64,000 nucleotides of DNA from Amycolatopsis lexingtonensis. GTDB taxonomy: Bacteria > Actinomycetota > Actinomycetes > Mycobacteriales > Pseudonocardiaceae. Location of the stretch: the NCBI RefSeq assembly GCF_014873755.1, contig NZ_JADBEG010000001.1:2420501-2484500 (forward strand), in the 5' to 3' direction. This document shows, one piece after another, positions 45,011 through 55,680 of the stretch (the stretch's first letter is position 1; the number at the start of each line of letters is the position of its first letter). The notes under the pieces were generated by a model that was not told where the DNA came from, did not search any database, and was given only the letters and a program-made list of their open reading frames with translations. The position numbers were made by a program, and so were the translations under genes.

Positions 45011-45378
45011 CCGATCTACTTGCGGGTGGGGGACGATCGTGGTCAACGGCGGGATGTGGGGCTTCACCCCATGGGCTGGAAAATCTCTCACATACTGGGC
45101 GGGTGGGGGCGGACCGGGTTGGGCTGCGCCTCTCACTCGAGCGCGGGCGGCCGGCCCCGCTGGATCGCCCTGTGACCGCGGCGGGCCGAGAACGCGCCCC
45201 GCCGAACCGGGCAGCCCGGCCAAGTCACCACGGCGAGTCGAGAGGCCGGGCCGCCGGCAGCGGGCCGCCGAGCCGGGACCGGGCCGCAAGGGCTGGGCGG
45301 CCCGGTCCCGGCTGTCGGCGGTGAGCCTCCGCTCAGCCCGTCGAGCGGCATCGCCGACCCAGCCCCGCGGCGCTGCGG
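45011..45378. other. 368-bp intergenic region with operon terminator
   Basis: It holds the MFS promoter side and, at 45271-45313, a strong hairpin that ends the upstream ini-like operon. The rest is GC-rich with scattered short repeats and no convincing gene. Confidence 0.6.
45271..45313 (-). terminator. terminator of the ini-like operon
   Basis: A 17-bp perfect stem (45271-45287 and 45297-45313) with a 9-nt loop sits 66 bp beyond the stop of the Hsp70-type gene. Confidence 0.8.
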
Positions 45379-46956
45379 TCAGGTTGTCGGGGGTGTCGTG
45401 GTCGTGGGGGTGGTGGTCGTCGTCGTGGGCGTGGTCGTCTTGGTGGGGCTCGTCTTCGGCGGCACCTTCCGGCGCGTCGTCACCGGCGCGTTCGTGTGCG
45501 GCGGGGCCACCGTCGCGTGCGTCGTCTCCGGGGTTTCCGGTGGCGGCAGCGTCACCAGGGCCGGGGTCTCGCTCTCCGACGTCGTCGCCGGTGGCGGGGT
45601 GCTCCCCGAGGGACTGCCGCCGGAGTTGCTGACCGCCACCGCCACCCCGCCGATCGCCACGACCGCCACCGCGCACAGGCCCACCACCACGCCGCGGCGG
45701 GAGGCGCGGCGGGCCGGGCTGCCGGACTTCTGGCGGCCCAGCGACGGCGGCGGTGCGCCCGCGCCGAAGCCGGGCGTCGCCATCGCGCGCGTCTCCTCGC
45801 GCGGCGGTGGCACGCGGGTCTCCTCGCGCGGCGAAGGCACCCGCGGCACCGGCGGCGGGAACGCGGGCCGCGCTTCCGTCGCCTGCACCAGGCCGGAGCG
45901 GCCCGAGGCGAGGGCCGCCGCGCCGAGGGCGACGCCGTACTTCGGGTGGATGTCGACCGCCGTCGGGCGGCCGAGCTCGGCCGAAACCAGCTGGGAGACC
46001 AGCGGGATCCGCGACGAGCCGCCGACCAGCAGGACGGCGCCGAGGTCGGCCGGGCGCAGGTTCGCCGAGCGCAGCGCGCGATGCAGCGAACCGATCGTCG
46101 CGGTGATCGACGGGCGGATCATCTCCTCGAACTCGCCGCGGGTCAGCCGCACCTCCGTCTGCACCGACGGCAGCAGCACCGGGACCGCCACCTCGGTGTC
46201 CGCCGACAGAGCTTCCTTCGCCAGCACGCATTCCTGGCGCAGCCGCACGACCGCCGCCACCGCGCCCGGGTCGTCCGGGTCGATCTGCGACAGCTTCCCG
46301 TCCAGCGCCCGGTCGACGTGCCCGAACACGGCTTCGTCGAAGTCGACCCCGCCCAGGCCCTCGATGCCTTCCGGCGTGCCGAGGATCTCGAACCCGCCGT
46401 TGCGCTTCCGCAGCACGGTCGCGTCGAACGTGCCGCCGCCGAGGTCGTACACCGCGACGACGGCACCCTCGTCGAGCCGCTCCTGGGCCGCGTAGTGCGC
46501 CGCCGCGGCTTCGGGCTCGGTGATCAGGCCGACGCGGTCGATCCCGGTCAGCTTCGGCACCTGTTCGAACAGCTCCCGCTTGTACGGTCCCCAGTTCGCC
46601 GGGTGGGTCAGCGTGATCCGGTCCGGACGGCCGCCCTGCTGCCCGGCGACCGTCCGGACCACGTACCCGAGCAGGTGGGCCATCAGCGACGCCACCGAGT
46701 GCGGCGCGCCACCGAGCAGCACCGGCGTCGGATCGCCCAGGCGCCGCTTGAACTCCCGCGTCACGCGGTCCGGTTCGACGGCCGCGCGCCGGCTCGCCGC
46801 GTCCCCGACCAGCACGCTGCCGTCGGGCCGCAGCAGCACCACCGACGGGATGGCCGCCGTCCGGTCGCCGAGCGACACCATTTCGACGTGGCCGGCCCGG
46901 TCGACGGCGGCGGCCGTGAAGGTCGTGCCGAGGTCGATGCCCAGTCCGTAGCCCAT
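45379..46956 (-). CDS. membrane-anchored Hsp70-type ATPase without substrate-binding domain
   Basis: This 525-residue protein has an N-terminal Hsp70/actin-fold ATPase (about 1-350): GIDLGTTFTAAAV, VVAVYDLGGGTFDATV, and VLLVGGSSRIPLVSQLV. The peptide-binding domain is missing. A charged Pro-rich linker (350-415) is followed by one membrane helix (about 420-440, VVVGLCAVAVVAIGGVAVAV) and an external Thr/Pro-rich tail. This layout ties a cytoplasmic ATPase to the envelope. It begins 1 bp after the preceding gene stop, so it is co-translated with the operon. Confidence 0.88.
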   Translation of the reverse strand: MGYGLGIDLGTTFTAAAVDRAGHVEMVSLGDRTAAIPSVVLLRPDGSVLVGDAASRRAAVEPDRVTREFKRRLGDPTPVLLGGAPHSVASLMAHLLGYVVRTVAGQQGGRPDRITLTHPANWGPYKRELFEQVPKLTGIDRVGLITEPEAAAAHYAAQERLDEGAVVAVYDLGGGTFDATVLRKRNGGFEILGTPEGIEGLGGVDFDEAVFGHVDRALDGKLSQIDPDDPGAVAAVVRLRQECVLAKEALSADTEVAVPVLLPSVQTEVRLTRGEFEEMIRPSITATIGSLHRALRSANLRPADLGAVLLVGGSSRIPLVSQLVSAELGRPTAVDIHPKYGVALGAAALASGRSGLVQATEARPAFPPPVPRVPSPREETRVPPPREETRAMATPGFGAGAPPPSLGRQKSGSPARRASRRGVVVGLCAVAVVAIGGVAVAVSNSGGSPSGSTPPPATTSESETPALVTLPPPETPETTHATVAPPHTNAPVTTRRKVPPKTSPTKTTTPTTTTTTPTTTTPPTT

Positions 46957-46957
46957 T

Positions 46958-48172
46958 TCAGCCTCCGCCGGCGGTGTGCGCGTGGTCGAGATTCGGGTGG
47001 TCTTCGGGAACCGGCTCCGGTTCCGCGGGGTGTTCTTCGTGCGAGTGGTCCTCGAGCGGGCCCGGTGGGTCCACCGGCGGCGGGTCGTGCGGTTCCGGCG
47101 GCGGGCTGTCCGGCACCTCGGCCGCGGCCGGCGCGGGGTCCGGCTCGGGGTGCCGCGGCGGCTCGAACGGGTGCTCCTTCTCCACCGGGTGCGGCCGGCT
47201 CCCGGTGACCTCGCCGGCGTCGTGGTGCGCCGGTTCGCGTTCGGTCGCGAAGCTGTGCCGCGGGGCCGGGTGCTCGGCGAGCGACGCCGATGCCGCCAGG
47301 TTCGTCTCGACGGCCGCCGGTGCGGCGTCCACTGTGGACGGCGTCCGGCTGAACGTGACGACCGGCGGTGCCGGTGGCCCTGGCAATGTGGGCGCCGGTG
47401 CGGTGACCTGCGCGGTCACCGTCGCGCCGCGGCCCTTGTCCCCGACCACCTCGGTCTGGTGGATGGTCGGCCCGGCCGGCTCGCCGAACGGGTCGTCGGC
47501 CTTGGCCTGCTCGTCCACGCTCACCCCGACCTCGATGCCGGGCGGCCCCGTCTCGGCCTCGTCGAGGACGACGGTCTCCTCCTGGAACACCTCGATGTCG
47601 CCGTGCCCCGGCGCGTCGGGGGTCAGCTCGTAGGTCAGCGAGCCCTCGTGCTCGACGGTGATCGTGCCGTCCGGGTTCTCGTGGACGACGATGCCGGCGT
47701 CCTGCACGATGTCGATGTCCGTGTCGCCCGGCGTCCCGTCCCCGGGCACGACGAGGTGCTGGTGATCGGTGTACACCTCGTCGTGGCCGTGGTTGTGCAC
47801 GACGAACCGCTCGGTCGCGTCGATGACGAAGTTGCCGAACTCGTCTTCGCGGACCTCGATCTGCTCGAACTCCTCGACGGTCGGCAATTCTTCGAGCGGC
47901 AGGCCGTCGGCGGTCTCCGGGTGCCAGACAGTGCCGGTCTGCGCTTCCACGTGGCCGTCTTCGCCGCGGGTGACCGTGCTGGTCTCCACCTCGGGGACGT
48001 ACTCGTGGGCGGGCACGTCGTGGGCGGTTTCGGCGGCGGCCGGCTCCGGCTGCGGCGGTGGCGCGGCCGGGGAACCGCCCGGCGTGAGCACGTTGCCGGC
48101 CACTTCGGACGCGACCGCGCCGGCGGCGGCCGTGACGGCCTTCCTGATCTTTCCCTTCGGCTGGTCGGTCAC
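46958..48172 (-). CDS. acidic, His-rich protein of the ini-like operon
   Basis: This 404-residue acidic protein has no recognised domain. After a short helical start (KGKIRKAVTAAAGAVASEVAGN), about residues 65-230 form beta-rich repeats with many Asp, Glu and His, such as FVIDATERFVVHNHGHDEVY and TITVEHEGSLTYELTP. The last 150 residues are Pro/Glu/His-rich with DHSHEEHPAEP and DHPNLDHAHTAGGG. The GTG start overlaps the stop of the dynamin-like gene (GTGA at 48169-48172). It may bind metal or act as an adaptor. Confidence 0.75.
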   Translation of the reverse strand: MTDQPKGKIRKAVTAAAGAVASEVAGNVLTPGGSPAAPPPQPEPAAAETAHDVPAHEYVPEVETSTVTRGEDGHVEAQTGTVWHPETADGLPLEELPTVEEFEQIEVREDEFGNFVIDATERFVVHNHGHDEVYTDHQHLVVPGDGTPGDTDIDIVQDAGIVVHENPDGTITVEHEGSLTYELTPDAPGHGDIEVFQEETVVLDEAETGPPGIEVGVSVDEQAKADDPFGEPAGPTIHQTEVVGDKGRGATVTAQVTAPAPTLPGPPAPPVVTFSRTPSTVDAAPAAVETNLAASASLAEHPAPRHSFATEREPAHHDAGEVTGSRPHPVEKEHPFEPPRHPEPDPAPAAAEVPDSPPPEPHDPPPVDPPGPLEDHSHEEHPAEPEPVPEDHPNLDHAHTAGGG

Positions 48173-49644
48173 GACAGGACCTCCGCCCTGGCTTCGCTGA
48201 GCAGGATTCCTTCGCACGTGCGGACCAGCACGCGCGCCGCGTCGCGGACGTCGCGCGGGGACGCGGGGTGCTCGGCGCGCCGCTGCCACCTCAGCAGCTG
48301 CGCGCCGAGCGCCTGCCGGATCGCGGTGCGGCCCGCGTTCCCCGGCAGGCCGAGGCGGCTCGGCACGTCCACCCCGGTCGCGCCGAGCAGTCGTTCCGCG
48401 TCGCGGGCCTCGTCGGTGGTGAACAGCACGACGCCGAGCCGGATCGAGTCGATCAGCTGGATCTCGGCGAACTCGTGCGCCCCGGCGACGATCCGCTCCC
48501 ATTCGTGCAGCAGGCCGCCGGTGCGGTCCGGGTAGGCGCGCAGCACCAGCTCCGCCGCCTGCAGCGCCGACCGCGCCTTGAGCACGTCGGCCCGCGCGGC
48601 GAACTGCGTGGTCAGCAGGGACCGGAGGCGGTGCAGGCCGCTGCGGGCCAGCAGCTCGCCCGACAGCGCCCGCGCGCCCGTCACCAGCTCGCCGCCGACC
48701 AGCTCGACCGCCAGCCGCACGCCGAAGAGGCCGTAGCGGGCCAGCAGTTCGGCGCGTTCGGCCGCCGGGACGTCCACCTCGGACGTGCCGGTGGCGAACC
48801 GGTCGGCCGACGTCAGCAGCCGCGCCACTTCGGCCTCCGGTGCCGCCGAAAGCCGCCGGAACGCGCGGAACTCGGATTCCTTGAGCGACGCCGCCGAGCT
48901 GGCCAGCAGGCCGGCCACCGGGACCACGGTCTGGCAGAGCCCGCGAACCCGCGGGTCACGGGCGTAGCGAGCGGCGATCTTCGCCGCCGAATCCAGCGCG
49001 TCGGGCCGGGCGTGCCCGACCTCGTCGGCCTTTGCCAGCACGCCGATCGTGTTCACCGGGCGGCGCTGCGCCGGGTCGTCGTGGAAGGCGTCCAGGAACC
49101 GGACGTCGTCGCCGTGCACGTGCCGCATCAGGTACACCACGGCGTCCGCGGTGCCCACGCCGTCGCCCTCGGGGACCAGCGCCGCTTCGGTGCGCCCGGA
49201 GACCTCCGCCCGCGCCGACCCCAGCCCGGGCGTGTCGATCAGCGTCATCGCGCGCAGGGCGGGCGACGGCCAGTCGACGACGAGCCGGTCGACGTCGTCG
49301 GGCGCCATGCCGAGTTCGAGGCCGAGGGTGCCGCTGAGCCTGCCGAAGGGCAGCTGGCGCGGCATCCCGCGGACGGGGTGCAGCATGATCCGGTAGGTGG
49401 GGCCGTTGCGGTACCAGGTGACGACCCGGGTGCACTCCCCCGCGTCGGTCGCCGCGAGCTCCTGGCCGACGAGGGCGTTGAGCAGCGTGGACTTCCCGGC
49501 CTTGACGCGGCCGGCGATCGCGACGCGCAGCGGTTCGGCGAGCCGGCCGGCGATCTGCCGCAGCTGCGGCTCGGCGGGCGTGCCCGCGTACCCGGCGCAC
49601 GCGCGGGCGACGAACCCGCGGACCTGGACGTAGAGCGGGGTCAT
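48169..49644 (-). CDS. dynamin-like GTPase, IniC-like
   Basis: This 491-residue protein has a dynamin-type GTPase domain (about 30-230): G1 GRVKAGKSTLLNA, G3 LIDTPGLGS, G4 VLAKADEVG. A helical C-terminal part follows. Length and order match mycobacterial IniC (about 493 residues). Its ATG overlaps the stop of the first GTPase (ATGA at 49641-49644), and its stop overlaps the next start. Dynamin pairs in bacteria remodel membranes at septa or under envelope stress. Confidence 0.88.
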   Translation of the reverse strand: MTPLYVQVRGFVARACAGYAGTPAEPQLRQIAGRLAEPLRVAIAGRVKAGKSTLLNALVGQELAATDAGECTRVVTWYRNGPTYRIMLHPVRGMPRQLPFGRLSGTLGLELGMAPDDVDRLVVDWPSPALRAMTLIDTPGLGSARAEVSGRTEAALVPEGDGVGTADAVVYLMRHVHGDDVRFLDAFHDDPAQRRPVNTIGVLAKADEVGHARPDALDSAAKIAARYARDPRVRGLCQTVVPVAGLLASSAASLKESEFRAFRRLSAAPEAEVARLLTSADRFATGTSEVDVPAAERAELLARYGLFGVRLAVELVGGELVTGARALSGELLARSGLHRLRSLLTTQFAARADVLKARSALQAAELVLRAYPDRTGGLLHEWERIVAGAHEFAEIQLIDSIRLGVVLFTTDEARDAERLLGATGVDVPSRLGLPGNAGRTAIRQALGAQLLRWQRRAEHPASPRDVRDAARVLVRTCEGILLSEARAEVLS

Positions 49645-51479
49645 CTGGCCACCGCCTTCGGTTTGGGGGCGCTGCGGAAGGTGAGCTCGTCGGCGCGGCG
49701 CTCGAGCACCTCGAGCGCGTCGATGTCGGCCTCGAGCCGGGTGAGCTCGGCGGCCTCGGCGTCGTCGGCGACGACCGCCTTCTTCGCGTTGGCCAGTGCT
49801 TCGGTCAGCGACCGCTGGAGTTCGTCGACGCGCGCGCTGTAGGCGTCGCGGAGTTCTCTTTGGACGGTCCGCATCGCGTCGCGCGAGTCCTTGCCGACCT
49901 GGAGGTTGAACTCGTCGACGAACCGGCGTACCGCGGTCTTGGCCAGGGTGCGGCGTTTCTCCAGCTGCCGCTTGCGTTCGTCGAGGAAGCCCGACCGGCC
50001 CATGAGCAGGCCCGCCGCCACCCCGAACGGCGTCGGGATGGCCAGCGCGGCCATCTTCGTGAGCATGGAGAACATCAGGAACCCGCTGTAGGCCTTCTGG
50101 AACGCGGCCATCCCGGTGGCGCCGCGGGTCTTGGCGCCGGTGAAGGACGCGTCGATGTCGATCTCCTCCACGACTTTCACGGGCGCCTGGACCTCCCGCG
50201 GCAGCACGGCCTGGGACTCGGCGAGCTCGAAGTGGTCGGCGACCCGGCCGGCCAGTCCCCTGGCCTGCTTGACGAAGGTCGCGTAGTTCTCGAGCGTCTC
50301 GTTCGCCAGGCGCTGCCGCAGCCACTTCTCGAATTCGGGCCAGTTCTTGGCCGGGTCGCCGTCCTCGATGGCTTCTTCGGCCTCGTGCAGCACGCCGCGG
50401 GAGCGGGCGCGCAGGTCGTAGTCCACATCGGACGAAATGTCGGCGAAGCCGTCGAAGAGGAGCTGCTGCCACTTGGCGGACTGGCTGCGCAGCGCGTCGA
50501 CGCGGTCGTTGACGCGCTGCAGCTCCGCGACGAGCGCGGCGGACTGCTCGGGGTGGGCGAGCGCGGTGCGGCGGGCGCGCAGGGTGGCGTGCAGCTGCCC
50601 GACCGCGGACCCGACGTGCAGGCCGACGGCGTTGAGCGCGGACCGCTCGGCGTCCCCGACCACGCCCTGCAGGCACTTGACCAGCTGCGGGAAGCCGGAC
50701 TCGACGTTCATCTCCTGGTCGGCCGAGCGGGCCGCGATGGTGCGCAGCTCCGAGGACACCGCGACGGTGTCGATGCTGAGGCCGCACGCTTCGAGGTGGC
50801 CGGCGTTGAGTTCGAGGATGCGCCGCCACTGCGGGTAGAGGTCGGTCTTGGTGAGGACGAAGAAGACATTCGGGCAGAGTTCTTTCACCGTCCGGAGGAA
50901 CCGCAGCTCGGCGCCGGTGAGTTCCTGCGACGCGTCCGAGAGGAACAGGACGGCGTGCGCCCGCGGCAGCGAGCTGACGGTGACGGCGTTGTGCAGCGAG
51001 CCGAGCCCGCCGACGCCCGGGGTGTCGACCAGCACCAGCCCACCGGAAAGCAACTGGCGGCTGATCGACGCGGTGACGGACTTGAGTTTCCTCAGATTGC
51101 CGGGATTCCCGGCCTCGCTGACGTGACTCGGCAGGTCTTCGAGGGAGATCCGCTCGGTCCACGGCGGCGACGACGGATCGGCCGGCTCGTAGGTCGCCAG
51201 AGCCCCGGACTCCGACGCGAACCGGACGACCGTCGGCACCGCGGTCGCGATGTCGTCGTCGACCGGGCAGATCTTGGCGGTCAGCAGCGCGTTGATGAGC
51301 GAACTCTTGCCCTGCTTGAATTCCCCGACGACGTAGACGGTGACGTCCGGTTCGGACAGCAGGCGCCGGGCGTCGGTGAGGCGCTGGACGAGATCGTCCC
51401 GCCCGTAGGCCTTCGCCCCCTTGACCGCGAGGTCGAGGGTGTCGAGGGCGACGCGCCCCCCGCCACTCGGCTCCTGCAT
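49641..51479 (-). CDS. dynamin-like GTPase, IniA-like
   Basis: This 612-residue bacterial dynamin-like protein has G1 GEFKQGKSSLINA at about 52-64, G3 VDTPGVGGLGS, G4 VLTKTDLYP, and long helical neck and trunk regions. Near 450-485 lies a hydrophobic hairpin (GFLMFSMLTKMAALAIPTPFGVAAGLLMG), read in pieces, that should insert in the membrane like the IniA paddle. The long coiled C-terminus ends in a Lys/Arg-rich tail. Mycobacterial IniA is about 640 residues. It follows the repeat-protein gene by 26 bp. Confidence 0.9.
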   Translation of the reverse strand: MQEPSGGGRVALDTLDLAVKGAKAYGRDDLVQRLTDARRLLSEPDVTVYVVGEFKQGKSSLINALLTAKICPVDDDIATAVPTVVRFASESGALATYEPADPSSPPWTERISLEDLPSHVSEAGNPGNLRKLKSVTASISRQLLSGGLVLVDTPGVGGLGSLHNAVTVSSLPRAHAVLFLSDASQELTGAELRFLRTVKELCPNVFFVLTKTDLYPQWRRILELNAGHLEACGLSIDTVAVSSELRTIAARSADQEMNVESGFPQLVKCLQGVVGDAERSALNAVGLHVGSAVGQLHATLRARRTALAHPEQSAALVAELQRVNDRVDALRSQSAKWQQLLFDGFADISSDVDYDLRARSRGVLHEAEEAIEDGDPAKNWPEFEKWLRQRLANETLENYATFVKQARGLAGRVADHFELAESQAVLPREVQAPVKVVEEIDIDASFTGAKTRGATGMAAFQKAYSGFLMFSMLTKMAALAIPTPFGVAAGLLMGRSGFLDERKRQLEKRRTLAKTAVRRFVDEFNLQVGKDSRDAMRTVQRELRDAYSARVDELQRSLTEALANAKKAVVADDAEAAELTRLEADIDALEVLERRADELTFRSAPKPKAVAR

Positions 51480-51505
51480 GACCGCTCCTCTGTGCTTACG
51501 CCGGC

Positions 51506-52717
51506 TCAGTAGTGGTCGACGTCGTGGTGGTCGACGTGGTGGGCGTGGTCGACGTGGTGGTCGTGGTGCTCGTGTTCGTGGTGCTCGGTGGCCGCCTGCT
51601 CGTTGAACTGGTTGCCGCCGTGGTGGCCCTGGGCTTGTTCGTTCTGGAAGATGTTGCCGTGGCCGCCCGACGAGGCCTGCTCGTTGAACTGGTTCCCGTG
51701 GTGGCCCTGGGCCTGCTCGTTCTGGAAGATGCTGCCGTGGCCGCCCGTCGAAGCCTGCTCGTTGAACTGGTTCCCGCCGTGACCGCCCGAGCCCTGCTCG
51801 TTCTGGAAGATGTCACCACGACCACCCGACGAAGCCTGCTCGTTGAACTGGTTGCCCCCGTGACCGCCCGAGCCCTGCTCGTTCTGGAAGATGTCACCAC
51901 GACCACCCGTCGAAGCCTGCTCGTTGAACTGGTTGCCCCCGTGACCGCCCGAGCCCTGCTCGTTCTGGAAGATGTCACCACGACCACCCGACGAAGCCTG
52001 CTCGTTGAACTGGTTCCCGCCGTGACCGCCCGAGCCCTGCTCGTTCTGGAAGATGTCACCACGACCACCCGACGAAGCCTGCTCGTTGAACTGGTTCCCG
52101 CCGTGACCGCCCGAGCCCTGCTCGTTCTGGAAGATGTCACCACGACCACCCGACGAAGCCTGCTCGTTGAACTGGTTGCCCCCGTGACCACCGGAACCCT
52201 GCTCGTTCTGGAAGATGTCACCACGACCACCCGTCGAAGCCTGCTCGTTGAACTGGTTGCCGCCGCGGCCGGAGCCTTGCTCGTTCTGGAAGATGTCGCC
52301 GCGGCCGCCGTTCGAGGCCTGCTCGTTGAACTGGTTCCCGCCGGAACCACCCGAGCCCTGCTCGTTCTGGAAGATGTCACCACGACCACCCGACGAAGCC
52401 TGCTCGTTGAACTGGTTGCCCCCGTGACCACCCGAGCCCTGCTCGTTCTGGAACACGTCACCGTGGTGGCCGGCCGACGCCTGCTCGTTGAACTGGTTGC
52501 CGCCGCGGCCGGAGCCTTGCTCGTTCTGGAAGATGTCGCCGCGGCCGCCGTTCGAGGCCTGCTCGTTGAACTGGTTCCCGCCGGAACCACCCGAGCCCTG
52601 CTCGTTCTGGAAGATGTCACCACGACCACCCGACGAAGCCTGCTCGTTGAACTGGTTCCCCCCGGAACCACCGGAACCCTGCTCGTTCTGGAAAACGTCG
52701 CCCGATGAAGTCGTCAT
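51506..52717 (-). CDS. FQNEQ/FNEQ tandem-repeat protein with His-rich tail
   Basis: This 403-residue protein consists of 14 units of 25-27 residues, each of the form GDIFQNEQGSGGHG followed by GNQFNEQASSGGR. The units are near-identical in DNA as well. Two blocks of three units are duplicated about 240 bp apart (around 52300 and 52540). The last 25 residues are almost all His, Asp and Glu. There is no signal peptide or membrane helix. Alternating Asn/Gln/Phe motifs suggest a beta-solenoid or amyloid-like fibre. It holds the IniB position of the locus. ATG 52717 has AGGAG 8 nt upstream. Confidence 0.88.
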   Translation of the reverse strand: MTTSSGDVFQNEQGSGGSGGNQFNEQASSGGRGDIFQNEQGSGGSGGNQFNEQASNGGRGDIFQNEQGSGRGGNQFNEQASAGHHGDVFQNEQGSGGHGGNQFNEQASSGGRGDIFQNEQGSGGSGGNQFNEQASNGGRGDIFQNEQGSGRGGNQFNEQASTGGRGDIFQNEQGSGGHGGNQFNEQASSGGRGDIFQNEQGSGGHGGNQFNEQASSGGRGDIFQNEQGSGGHGGNQFNEQASSGGRGDIFQNEQGSGGHGGNQFNEQASTGGRGDIFQNEQGSGGHGGNQFNEQASSGGRGDIFQNEQGSGGHGGNQFNEQASTGGHGSIFQNEQAQGHHGNQFNEQASSGGHGNIFQNEQAQGHHGGNQFNEQAATEHHEHEHHDHHVDHAHHVDHHDVDHY

Positions 52718-52801
52718 CCTGTGCACTCCTGACATTCGGATCGGTGAAGCCCGTGCCCCTCCGTTGTCACCAAGTCTCAGCCCGGAAACCGCCGCGGTCA
52801 T

Positions 52802-52817
52802 GAGTAGCGGCCTACTC
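52802..52817. promoter_or_regulatory. dyad upstream of the repeat-protein gene
   Basis: GAGTAGCGGCCTACTC has arms GAGTAG and CTACTC around CGGC. It is 85 bp upstream of the repeat-protein ATG and 31 bp past the stop of the LuxR/AAA regulator. It is a candidate site for that regulator. Confidence 0.45.
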
Positions 52818-52847
52818 GGCTTCGCCGGGGCCGGCACCGTCACCTAC

Positions 52848-55412
52848 CTATGGGCCGTCCCCCGCATTACTCCCCGGCTCCGGCTGCCCCACCACCGAAG
52901 CCAGCTCGCGGCGCCCCGAAATACCCAGCTTCGCGTAAACGCCGTGCAGCACGTTGTCCACCGTTCGCACCGACACCACCAGGCGGTCCGCGACGGCTCG
53001 GCTCGTCAGGCCGGTCGCCACCAGGCGGGCGATCTCCAGCTCGCGGACCGTCAGGTCGAGCGGGGTGTCCAGCAGCGCCAGCGCCGGCGTCGCAGCGTCC
53101 TCACAGGACACCAGCCACGACTGCGCCCGCTGCGCCGAACCGACCGCGCTCCCCAGCTTCCCCGCCGCGCGGTGGGCTCGGGCCGCCTCCGCCGCGACCT
53201 CCGCGGCGAGCAAGCGCGCCCCGAGGTCGGCGAACTTCGCCGCGACGGCGTCCAGTGCCACCGCGTCCCCTGAGGACAGCGCCCGCGCGTGCGCCGAGTA
53301 GAGCGACACCAGCGGGTTGTCCAGGTCCGACGAGAACTCGGGGACGCCGAAGCGGACCGCGTCGTGGCGGATCTCGGCCGCGATCGCCGCCCGGCCCGCC
53401 GCCTCCGCCGCCGACGCCGCCTCCGCCGCCAGCGACACCGCGCGGGTCAGCTCGCCCCGGGACGCGCACGCCCAGGCCGTGGCCCAGCGGCCGGGCGAGT
53501 CCGCCGCCTGCCCGGCCATCGCCGTCGCCCGGGCCAGCGCGTTCAGCACCGCCGGGCGGAACTCGTGCGGCTGGTCGTGGCCCTCCACCGCCAAGGCTTC
53601 GCGCAGCCGGCGGATCGCCGCCCGCACGTTCCCGTACGCCAGCGCGACCGTCCCGAGGGACGCCGCCGCGCCCGCCAGTGCCGGGGCCCAGCGGTCGCCG
53701 ACCGCGTCGCGGTAGTCCGCGCCCGCCAGGTCCTCGGCCTCCTCCAGGCGGCCGGCCCGGCACAGCGCCACCACCCGCGCGTGCTCCAAGCGCACGCGAG
53801 ATCCCGGCACGGACGCGTCGGAGGCCGTGATCAGCAGGCCCTCCTCGACGACGCCGAGGCACGCCTCCGTCCGCCCGGTCTCGGCCAGCGCCCCGGCCGC
53901 GACCACCAGTGCCCCGAGCCGCAGGACGTCGCCGCGCCGGTTGCGGTCCAGGATCGGGCCGAGCAGGTCGAGCGCCTCGCGGCACGCGCCCGTCGCCGCG
54001 CGCAACGCCGCACGGGCGACCACCAGCTCGTCGAGCGTCCCGGACACCGCGGTCTCGGCCGTGTCCAGCACGGACTCCGCCTCTTCGAAGCGGTTCAGGC
54101 CGAACGCCAGGTTCCGCGCCCGCGTCCCCGCGACGCGCGCGTGCTGCGCGTCGGACACCGTCTCGCCGGCGAGCTCGGCCAGCAGCGCGTCGGCGTCGGC
54201 GTGCCGCCCGCCCGCGATCCGGACCTGGGCCAGCAGGTACTTCGCGGCGAACCCGCCACCCAGCCGGACGGCTTCCGCGGCCAGCTGCTCGGCCTGGGGG
54301 AAGTCCTTGCGCAGCAACGTCTCCGCCGCGGCACGGACGAGCTGCGGGTCGGTCGGCAGCCCGGCGGCCAGCCGCCAGCGGACCAGCCGCGGTTTGTCCT
54401 CGGCGCGCCGCGCGCCGGTCATGTCCAGCGTCTTGGCGAGGATGCGGTAGGTGTCGCGCTGCCGCAGCGGCGACGTCCGGCGCCGGATGACCTCGGCGTA
54501 GAGCGGGTGCGCGAGGCGGACGTTCAGCCGCCGCCCGGTGCGCTCGGACACCACGAGCCCGGCCCGCTCGGTGGACGCGAGGACGTGGGCGGCGCCCAGC
54601 CGGACGAGCGGTTCGCTGCCCAGTTGCTCGCCGAAGGCCAGCAGTTCCAGCAGCCGCCGCTCGTCGGCGTCGACGCGGTCGGTGCGGGTTTCGATCAGCT
54701 CGACCAGCCGCGGTGTCGCGATGAGGGCGCCGCTCCACCGCCACAGTCCGTCCGTGGCCGACAGCGAGCCGCTGTCGAGCCCGCCCTGGACGAGTTCCCG
54801 CAGGAACAGCGGGTTCCCGAGGGTCAGGTTCCACAGCCGGTGCTCCGCCCCGTCCTCGAGCCGCCCGCCCAGTGCCGCGGTGACCAGCTCGATGGTCTGC
54901 GCCCGGGTCAGTTCGCCGACGTCGAGCCGCTCGGCGACGCGGTCCTTCCACATCGCGAACACCGGGTCGGGCACGCTGACGCCGTGCGGCGCGATCACGA
55001 TGACGAACGCCGACGCCGTCGCGGCCAGCTGGTGCACCAGCGTCGCGGACAGGTCGTCGAGCAGGTGCGCGTCGTCGACGCACAGCACCAGCCGCCGCCC
55101 CTCCGCGCCCCGCGTGAGGTGGCCGGCGACCTGGTTGAGCCGGTGCGCGCGGTCGGCCGTGCCGTCGGCGCTGCCCGGCAGCAGGTGGGCGAAGGCGCCG
55201 AACGGGATCGTCGACGCCGACGACATCGCGCGCACCCAGTGCGTGCGCGCCCCACCGGCGGCCAGCTCGCTCAGCAGCACCTTGGCCAAGCGCGTCTTGC
55301 CGGCCCCGGCCCGCCCGGTCAGCAGCAGCCCGCACACCTCCGTGTCCGCCAGTGCCCGGCGCGCGAACGCCAGTTCCTGTTCACGGCCCACCAGCGGCCA
55401 GTCGTTCGCCAC
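52848..55412 (-). CDS. LAL-type (AAA-LuxR) transcriptional regulator
   Basis: This 854-residue regulator has an N-terminal STAND/AAA module: Walker A TGRAGAGKT (about 33-41), Walker B LVLCVDDAHLLDD. A long helical TPR-like region follows (about 350-780), then a C-terminal LuxR helix-turn-helix with LTVRELEIARLVATGLTSRAVADRL and VRTVDNVLHGVYAKLG. It resembles mycobacterial IniR (Rv0339c), which activates iniBAC in response to trehalose. Gene position supports this. GTG 55412 has GGAGG 8 nt upstream; the first of the two GTG codons is too close. Confidence 0.88.
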   Translation of the reverse strand: MANDWPLVGREQELAFARRALADTEVCGLLLTGRAGAGKTRLAKVLLSELAAGGARTHWVRAMSSASTIPFGAFAHLLPGSADGTADRAHRLNQVAGHLTRGAEGRRLVLCVDDAHLLDDLSATLVHQLAATASAFVIVIAPHGVSVPDPVFAMWKDRVAERLDVGELTRAQTIELVTAALGGRLEDGAEHRLWNLTLGNPLFLRELVQGGLDSGSLSATDGLWRWSGALIATPRLVELIETRTDRVDADERRLLELLAFGEQLGSEPLVRLGAAHVLASTERAGLVVSERTGRRLNVRLAHPLYAEVIRRRTSPLRQRDTYRILAKTLDMTGARRAEDKPRLVRWRLAAGLPTDPQLVRAAAETLLRKDFPQAEQLAAEAVRLGGGFAAKYLLAQVRIAGGRHADADALLAELAGETVSDAQHARVAGTRARNLAFGLNRFEEAESVLDTAETAVSGTLDELVVARAALRAATGACREALDLLGPILDRNRRGDVLRLGALVVAAGALAETGRTEACLGVVEEGLLITASDASVPGSRVRLEHARVVALCRAGRLEEAEDLAGADYRDAVGDRWAPALAGAAASLGTVALAYGNVRAAIRRLREALAVEGHDQPHEFRPAVLNALARATAMAGQAADSPGRWATAWACASRGELTRAVSLAAEAASAAEAAGRAAIAAEIRHDAVRFGVPEFSSDLDNPLVSLYSAHARALSSGDAVALDAVAAKFADLGARLLAAEVAAEAARAHRAAGKLGSAVGSAQRAQSWLVSCEDAATPALALLDTPLDLTVRELEIARLVATGLTSRAVADRLVVSVRTVDNVLHGVYAKLGISGRRELASVVGQPEPGSNAGDGP

Positions 55413-55680
55413 ACCCACTGCCTCCCCGCCTGCGCACAGTCGTACTCCGGATAATGACAACGGAGCGGACCGCGAAGTACCGAATCCGCGCAGCGATTTG
55501 GCATATTTCGCCGGGCGGCCCGACAAATCCGACACAACGGACGGCCGATCCGGTATTCCGTGAGCATTTTCCCGCTATTCTCCCGGCACCGTGATCAACC
55601 GTTTTCGCGGAATTCAAGACAATCACTCGCCGAGGCGCCAGGATGGGGCTCACCCCGTTCCCCGAAGTGAGGACCCGAGG

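Follow-up and report, generated by a model that had tools for sequence, protein, structure and literature searches.

Organization of the locus

We analyzed positions 2420501-2484500 of the single-contig, 10.74-Mb genome of Amycolatopsis lexingtonensis (this whole stretch of 64,000 nucleotides is called the window, and coordinates are those of the window unless stated otherwise), which contains a cassette of six genes related to iniBAC, long studied as a cell-wall drug marker. All six genes lie on the minus strand, where a first-pass annotation had placed them, and encode, in order of transcription, a LuxR/AAA regulator (luxR, 52848..55412; 854 amino acids [aa]), a repeat protein rich in glutamine and asparagine (rep, 51506..52717; 403 aa), an IniA-type bacterial dynamin (49641..51479; 612 aa), an IniC-type bacterial dynamin (48169..49644; 491 aa), an acidic protein (46958..48172; 404 aa, with a GTG start at 48172) and an Hsp70-fold ATPase with a predicted transmembrane segment (hsp70, 45379..46956; 525 aa). 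The same gene set was present in 16 of 16 relatives within the genus, in one of them with a broken rep. This six-gene cassette is real and conserved, and its genes are probably co-regulated.

The MTTSSGD amino terminus of the repeat protein was kept in 16 of the 17 relatives examined, so the ATG at 52717 is most likely the rep start, and the luxR-rep gap is therefore 130 bp long (52718..52847, minus strand), with a leader before this ATG that proved conserved when the window was aligned with 16 relatives. The tight spacing described earlier, by overlaps or gaps of 1-26 bp, thus holds for the last five genes (a 26-bp gap after rep, two 4-bp overlaps, the second between iniC and the acidic gene, and a 1-bp gap before hsp70) but not for luxR and rep. 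As the 130-bp gap carries a conserved palindrome, the five genes from rep to hsp70 probably have their own promoter, and luxR, for which an alternative upstream GTG start is possible at 55535, may be a separate transcription unit. A sigma-70 promoter scan gave no match, which is uninformative at 72% GC. The single terminator of the first-pass annotation is plausible in a non-classical form: no T-run terminator was found on the minus strand (the sole match lay on the plus strand, and shuffles gave a mean of 4.0), and a strong hairpin with a 16-bp stem and no T-run lies 3' of hsp70 (45272..45312, minus strand; hairpin scan, coordinates set by hand). All gene maps were made with a codon-usage gene caller, which cut some starts short.

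The two GTPases are relatives of IniA and IniC

The first GTPase matched the crystallized IniA of Mycobacterium smegmatis (6J72) with 326.6 bits over residues 15-583 of 612 (phmmer), and the next entry in the Protein Data Bank (PDB) after IniA reached 45.3 bits, over residues 31-213 only. The second GTPase showed 39% identity over 462 aa (291 bits) to the product of the gene that follows iniA in locus L188; we take this locus as mycobacterial because its IniA matches that of M. smegmatis with 1014 bits. None of the best 120 of 6091 matches in a homologue search with the window IniC was named IniC. A tree built from 54 IniA proteins placed 14 rows in the window clade, with support 100/100. Judged by these alignments, both proteins are true IniA and IniC relatives beyond the generic dynamin fold, as had been proposed for them.

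IniA is reported to cut membranes, and R488/K489 of the M. smegmatis protein are assigned to a lipid-interacting trunk loop (PMC6715688). In an alignment read by eye, the window IniA keeps the arginine of this loop and has serine for the lysine, with a basic cluster nearby. Two loci, L082 and L223, had iniA and iniC called as one 1101-aa frame, a possible fusion or sequencing slip.

A conserved palindrome accompanies the regulator

The luxR-rep gap contains a candidate palindromic operator (52798..52821, strand unassigned), located by alignment and pattern scans, which in the window has the form GAGTAG-N4-CTACTC with an outer CATGA on one side and whose consensus is TCATGAGTAG-N3/4-CTACTCATGA. 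The palindrome is preserved across the window and 16 relatives, amid gap sequence much of which varies. Exact GAGTANNNNGCTACTC occurred once in the 10.7-Mb host genome, at the window locus; at one mismatch, the operator showed no excess in that genome over a reversed control (5 rows versus 12).

We then tallied regulator types in 79 public-genome loci, 15 of which had the window type. With at most 3 mismatches in 16 positions, the palindrome was found in 14 of these 15 loci, in none of 45 loci whose ini regulator was of another type and in 3 of the 19 loci without a regulator scoring above 100 bits, one of these three being the Acidimicrobiia locus L096. The Fisher p of 9e-13 for 14/15 versus 0/45 overstates independence, because the 15 loci are related. 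The pattern matched 24 times in 1.37 Mb and once in a shuffled copy, the control being one base shuffle and 2 of the 24 matches (both in L101) falling inside repeat genes. In the gene order of the window the site precedes rep, and where gene order is altered, sites precede iniA (L088-L090), hsp70 (L085, L093-L095) or the acidic gene (L084, L087). At the level of sequence, the palindrome marks rep, iniA, iniC, the acidic gene and hsp70 as one regulon, and we infer that the regulator would bind it. The single exact operator also offers a direct way to report on, and so to look for, the signal that induces the cassette in harmless actinobacteria.

The regulator is of the LAL/STAND type (Pfam AAA_16 and GerE), and its layout of an AAA ATPase, helical (MalT-like) repeats and a LuxR helix-turn-helix (HTH) appears to be shared with IniR, against whose profile it aligned at 99.4% over 730 columns with 19% identity (hhalign). 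We file it as IniR-like and not as IniR. PMC5760070 reports dedicated regulation for IniR, which agrees with this picture of the cassette.

A membrane Hsp70-fold protein is a common component of ini loci

The first-pass annotation had treated the Hsp70-type protein as an addition to iniBAC and had made its linkage in other genomes a condition of its reading; the linkage was borne out and the addition was not. In four samples that overlap in part, with weak Hsp70 matches counted too, an Hsp70 gene lay within 8 kb of iniA in 20 of the 20 best family loci, in 15 of 19 further family loci holding iniA, in 52 of 74 public-genome loci with iniA (45 of 49 when 8 kb was available on both sides) and in all 17 order-wide iniA loci chosen by their IniB domain. 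The first three samples were ranked by likeness to the window IniA and the fourth was chosen by IniB, and a few loci are metagenome-assembled genomes (MAGs) labelled outside Actinomycetota. Loci without a called IniA were omitted from these counts (L060; L105, L112, L114, L142 and L152 of the 79; L191, L197 and L204 of the 20), and L116 was scored as lacking Hsp70, although one maps just past 8 kb. Because the 10.7-Mb host genome holds only 5 Hsp70 genes by Pfam (6 rows, two of them in the window gene), about 0.75% would be expected to have one within 8 kb of a given point. The linkage of Hsp70 to iniA is beyond chance, and the Hsp70-fold protein, not an extra here, is common among ini loci, including those of mycobacterial type.

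In loci of mycobacterial type (L188, L189 and L192-L196), the regulator gene and a small iniB*-like gene have an Hsp70-fold gene between them. BLASTP of the window Hsp70 against the Hsp70 of the mycobacterial locus gave no match; a profile comparison of the window-type and mycobacterial-type proteins gave 99.9%, with 32% identity over 329 columns. One sentence in PMC5760070 (section 10) mentions a dnaK-like gene adjoining iniR in M. smegmatis, and a search for literature on iniBAC, IniR or bacterial dynamins together with Hsp70, with subscription journals mostly outside its scope, gave nothing beyond that sentence. A common membrane-spanning Hsp70-fold component would be a named and testable missing part of iniBAC that has gone nearly unmentioned.

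The ATPase domain of the window protein (about residues 1-355) aligns to DnaK over residues 5-351, and the substrate-binding domain is missing, since the PF00012 match stops at model position 377 of 599. In its place follow a linker, a basic stretch, one transmembrane segment by hydropathy (423-441) and a Thr/Pro-rich tail; by the positive-inside rule, the ATPase domain would lie inside and the tail is predicted outside. The ATP motifs DLGTT, K70, DLGGGTFD and VGGSSRIP are all present in the window protein and are kept in all 17 distinct complete window-type sequences. Among 102 Hsp70 sequences, at least 48 have intact motifs, a lower bound because the gene caller cuts some starts, and L205, which shares its family code with the mycobacterial-type loci, has intact motifs as well. 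Beta-propeller domains follow the transmembrane segment in 2 of 6 scanned relatives, both from Pseudonocardia; these Hsp70-fold proteins, at L085 7264-9840 and L087 15880-18423, carry propellers of the YNCE/lactonase type. The architecture suggests that the protein spans the membrane as a link or receptor and that the window lineage has kept its use of ATP.

It may even be a transmembrane receptor instead of a chaperone, in which an outside ligand would cause the ATPase domain to gate the regulator or the dynamins, and we give this possibility only a little less than an even chance. The missing substrate-binding domain, the varied outer parts (with propellers in two of the six), the loss of the nucleotide site in some lineages while the transmembrane segment and tail stay, and the frequent position of hsp70 next to the regulator gene are all consistent with it. 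However, most outer tails look low-complexity and have no recognized ligand domain, and in the window no other gene of the cassette lies as far from the regulator as hsp70.

The repeat protein and the position of IniB

The rep gene contains a tandem repeat of 81 bp in 13.7 copies (score 1507, TRF), which is far beyond chance. The encoded protein is Q/N-rich, without lysine or cysteine, and has 14 FQNEQ-type and 14 QFNEQ-type motifs; the two counts are equal, at 10-19 each, in the window and in all 15 repeat genes called within the genus. Glycine linkers between repeat units vary in length across units and species. The structure model is a beta-solenoid (pLDDT 69) with 28 strands for the 28 motifs; from this model, which is of moderate confidence, the protein is predicted to fold as a curli-like beta-solenoid. 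No Pfam or NCBIfam family was assigned to it, no transmembrane segment was seen by hydropathy and no signal peptide by eye. A PDB sequence search returned one match (E 0.22), a viral fold search with the model had no match at E 0.001, and a homologue search had none at E 0.001 among 7990 candidates, though relatives exist; these were found through their loci, as biased composition probably hides them from sequence search. The His/Asp-rich C-terminal tail (51512-51590), kept in genus relatives with a called repeat gene, is possibly metal-binding.

The same features could belong to a disordered sticker-and-spacer protein, in which the FQNEQ and QFNEQ motifs would be stickers and the glycine linkers spacers, and which would form condensates or gels at the membrane that the Hsp70 keeps fluid. 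The varying linkers, the composition and the moderate confidence of the solenoid model are compatible with this reading, which we consider possible if on the doubtful side; the equal motif counts in all 15 genus genes and the window, in contrast, fit a two-strand rung better, and the model has one strand for each motif.

Returning to the putative solenoid, the repeat protein lies directly before iniA and has an acidic low-complexity make-up, both as expected of the protein in the IniB slot. By sequence it is not IniB, since a profile search with IniB_NTERM (NF038175, cut-off 40 bits) matched neither this protein nor 13 slot proteins of its clade. The IniB N-terminal domain was matched at E 0.01 by 67 of 99 slot proteins drawn from all lineages (99 of 103 were tested, L103, L110, L130 and L205 being left out as contig-edge or very short, and the L087 slot protein, with unread bases, was dropped beforehand). 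The NF038175 result is the proper test for IniB, as the INIBq label in our locus maps can mean low-complexity similarity only.

QN repeats fill the slot in Amycolatopsis, a Pseudonocardiaceae MAG, Pseudonocardia KRD291 and Actinomycetospora cinnamomea, and other loci of the window clade have QVTGPVQVG repeats, Cys/Trp/Pro-rich repeats or Asp/His-rich sequence there. Slot proteins are alike in make-up and not in sequence: compared with 1000 neighbouring proteins, 111 slot proteins were acidic, polar and lysine-poor, with a median pI of 4.05 (the calculation floor) versus 5.56, and the window repeat protein has a pI of 4.9. On the IniA tree, the QN label required 4 gains or losses, at least 3 of them forced by well-supported branches, and was only mildly clustered (69 of 500 label shuffles needed as few changes). 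As the label is not tightly clustered, the tree agrees with swapping of the slot protein. PMC5760070 suggests that the amount of IniB is high relative to IniA and IniC. The presence of unrelated acidic repeat proteins in the slot suggests a scaffold role for IniB, in which its bulk properties would count for more than its sequence.

The acidic protein has a beta-rich conserved core (about residues 57-205), low-confidence ends and a His/Pro-rich tail, and belongs to no known family in Pfam or NCBIfam. Its model was poor (pLDDT 47.6, pTM 0.40) and Foldseek returned nothing at E 0.001; we claim no fold for it. Of the parts of the cassette, the genuine extras are the QN-repeat and acidic proteins.

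Distribution and other ini loci of the host

The window IniA is 96% identical to that of A. vancoresmycina, and the closest named relatives at the locus are Amycolatopsis. An IniA-type gene was found at E 1e-60 in 79 of 80 genomes of the genus. Because the window type (92-100% identity) occurs in only 17 of the 80, the host included, the window cassette is an accessory second system. A second locus with IniA and IniC lies at 5.80 Mb of the host genome (L059, genome positions 5797661-5803200) and has LuxR, Hsp70-fold, IniB, IniA and IniC genes; its IniA is 36% identical to the window IniA, and its Hsp70-fold protein has lost the ATP motifs and has no Pfam match. A looser third dynamin pair lies at ~7.45 Mb (L060, 7449681-7454407), with no IniB- or Hsp70-like gene labelled beside it.

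Actinomycetospora cinnamomea (L091, 1-19779) has two adjacent window-type cassettes; a QN-repeat protein is encoded in the second, and the fetched stretch ends within the first. The caller missed the acidic gene of L222, which was recovered by tblastn. It also found almost no genes between 29600 and 33750 of the window, where GC is 0.67-0.75 and AT skew reaches 0.41.

Proposed function

We think there is an even chance that the cassette is best explained as an iniBAC-type system, probably for envelope stress, that belongs to a second deep lineage apart from the other ini locus of the host. Its role in envelope stress would be carried over, by analogy, from mycobacteria. What is new here is a rebuilt iniBAC-type cassette in which the scaffold protein has been swapped and an acidic protein added, next to the common membrane Hsp70.

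Several observations weigh against this explanation. An Acidimicrobiia locus (L096, 8439) has a perfect palindrome and an IniB-labelled slot gene together with a different LuxR-type regulator. BLASTP of the window regulator against mycobacterial IniR matched the DNA-binding domain (HTH) only, as in a distant relative, and IniR is not its closest kin, though the profiles align over 730 columns. One of the 16 same-genus relatives (L220, 9700-11000) has a broken repeat gene and no operator, and retains iniA, iniC, the acidic gene and hsp70. The Hsp70 ATP motifs are degenerate in the host's other copy and in all 11 rows of the mycobacterial-type loci L188-L196, so the family as a whole does not depend on ATP use. 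Foldseek gave no significant match to the repeat model of pLDDT 69, and repeats can be wrongly modelled as solenoids. Finally, a literature search gave no expression, stress or binding data for the window lineage and nothing on iniBAC in Amycolatopsis.

From the anatomy of the cassette we infer a membrane-repair mechanism that would combine a filament-forming scaffold, the dynamins and a wall-sensing ATPase. Damage to the wall or membrane would lead the regulator to switch on the operon, and the repeat protein, made in quantity, would assemble along the inner membrane face as rod-shaped solenoids. IniA and IniC would bind, bend and cut or seal the damaged membrane at that place, while the membrane Hsp70 might sense or grip the wall through its outer part and, by ATP-driven changes of shape, recruit, load or release the scaffold and the dynamins; the acidic protein may serve as an adaptor. 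In a bolder reading, the cassette would build a curli-like filament, amyloid or solenoid, inside the cell at the inner membrane; its length could be tuned genetically, and a dedicated wall-sensing, membrane-anchored Hsp70 ATPase and two dynamins would handle it. Such a membrane-repair machine with a swappable scaffold is unlikely, and we offer it tentatively. If true, it would explain the role of IniB in mycobacteria.

Dynamins act in some bacterial defences, and the PADLOC LeoBC profile matched the window IniA (E 1e-16), two points in favour of a dynamin-based phage-defence system. We regard such a system as highly improbable, as the similarity to IniA is far stronger and nearly full length, an IniA-type gene is present in 79 of 80 genus genomes, and the other PADLOC matches of the six proteins were weak. 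A chance neighbourhood of unrelated genes, for which we found no supporting point, has a negligible probability, already contradicted by the conserved Hsp70-iniA linkage, the shared palindrome and the gene set shared by all 16 relatives in the genus, with rep broken in one of them.

Comparison with known systems

The repeat protein resembles curli CsgA in fold only, and in a model of moderate confidence. It differs in having no curlin Pfam match, no transmembrane segment and, by eye, no signal peptide, and the cassette, in which secretion genes were sought, holds no csg genes. The Foldseek match was not significant, and we do not claim membership of the CsgA family. The GTPases share with the Leo bacterial dynamins a dynamin GTPase and, for IniA, the match to the LeoBC profile, which however is weaker than that to IniA; to our knowledge, the Leo dynamins have no IniB, Hsp70 or LuxR partners. 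With DnaK and other Hsp70 chaperones, the Hsp70-fold protein shares the nucleotide-binding domain (residues 5-351), but it has a linker, a transmembrane segment and a tail in place of the substrate-binding domain.

With mycobacterial iniBAC and iniR, the cassette shares the order of IniA and IniC behind an acidic low-complexity protein, an adjoining LuxR/AAA regulator and an Hsp70-fold gene, which mycobacterial-type loci also contain. It differs from them in having QN-repeat and acidic proteins and no IniB_NTERM protein, in a regulator of another subfamily with a palindrome of its own, and in the intact ATP site of its Hsp70.

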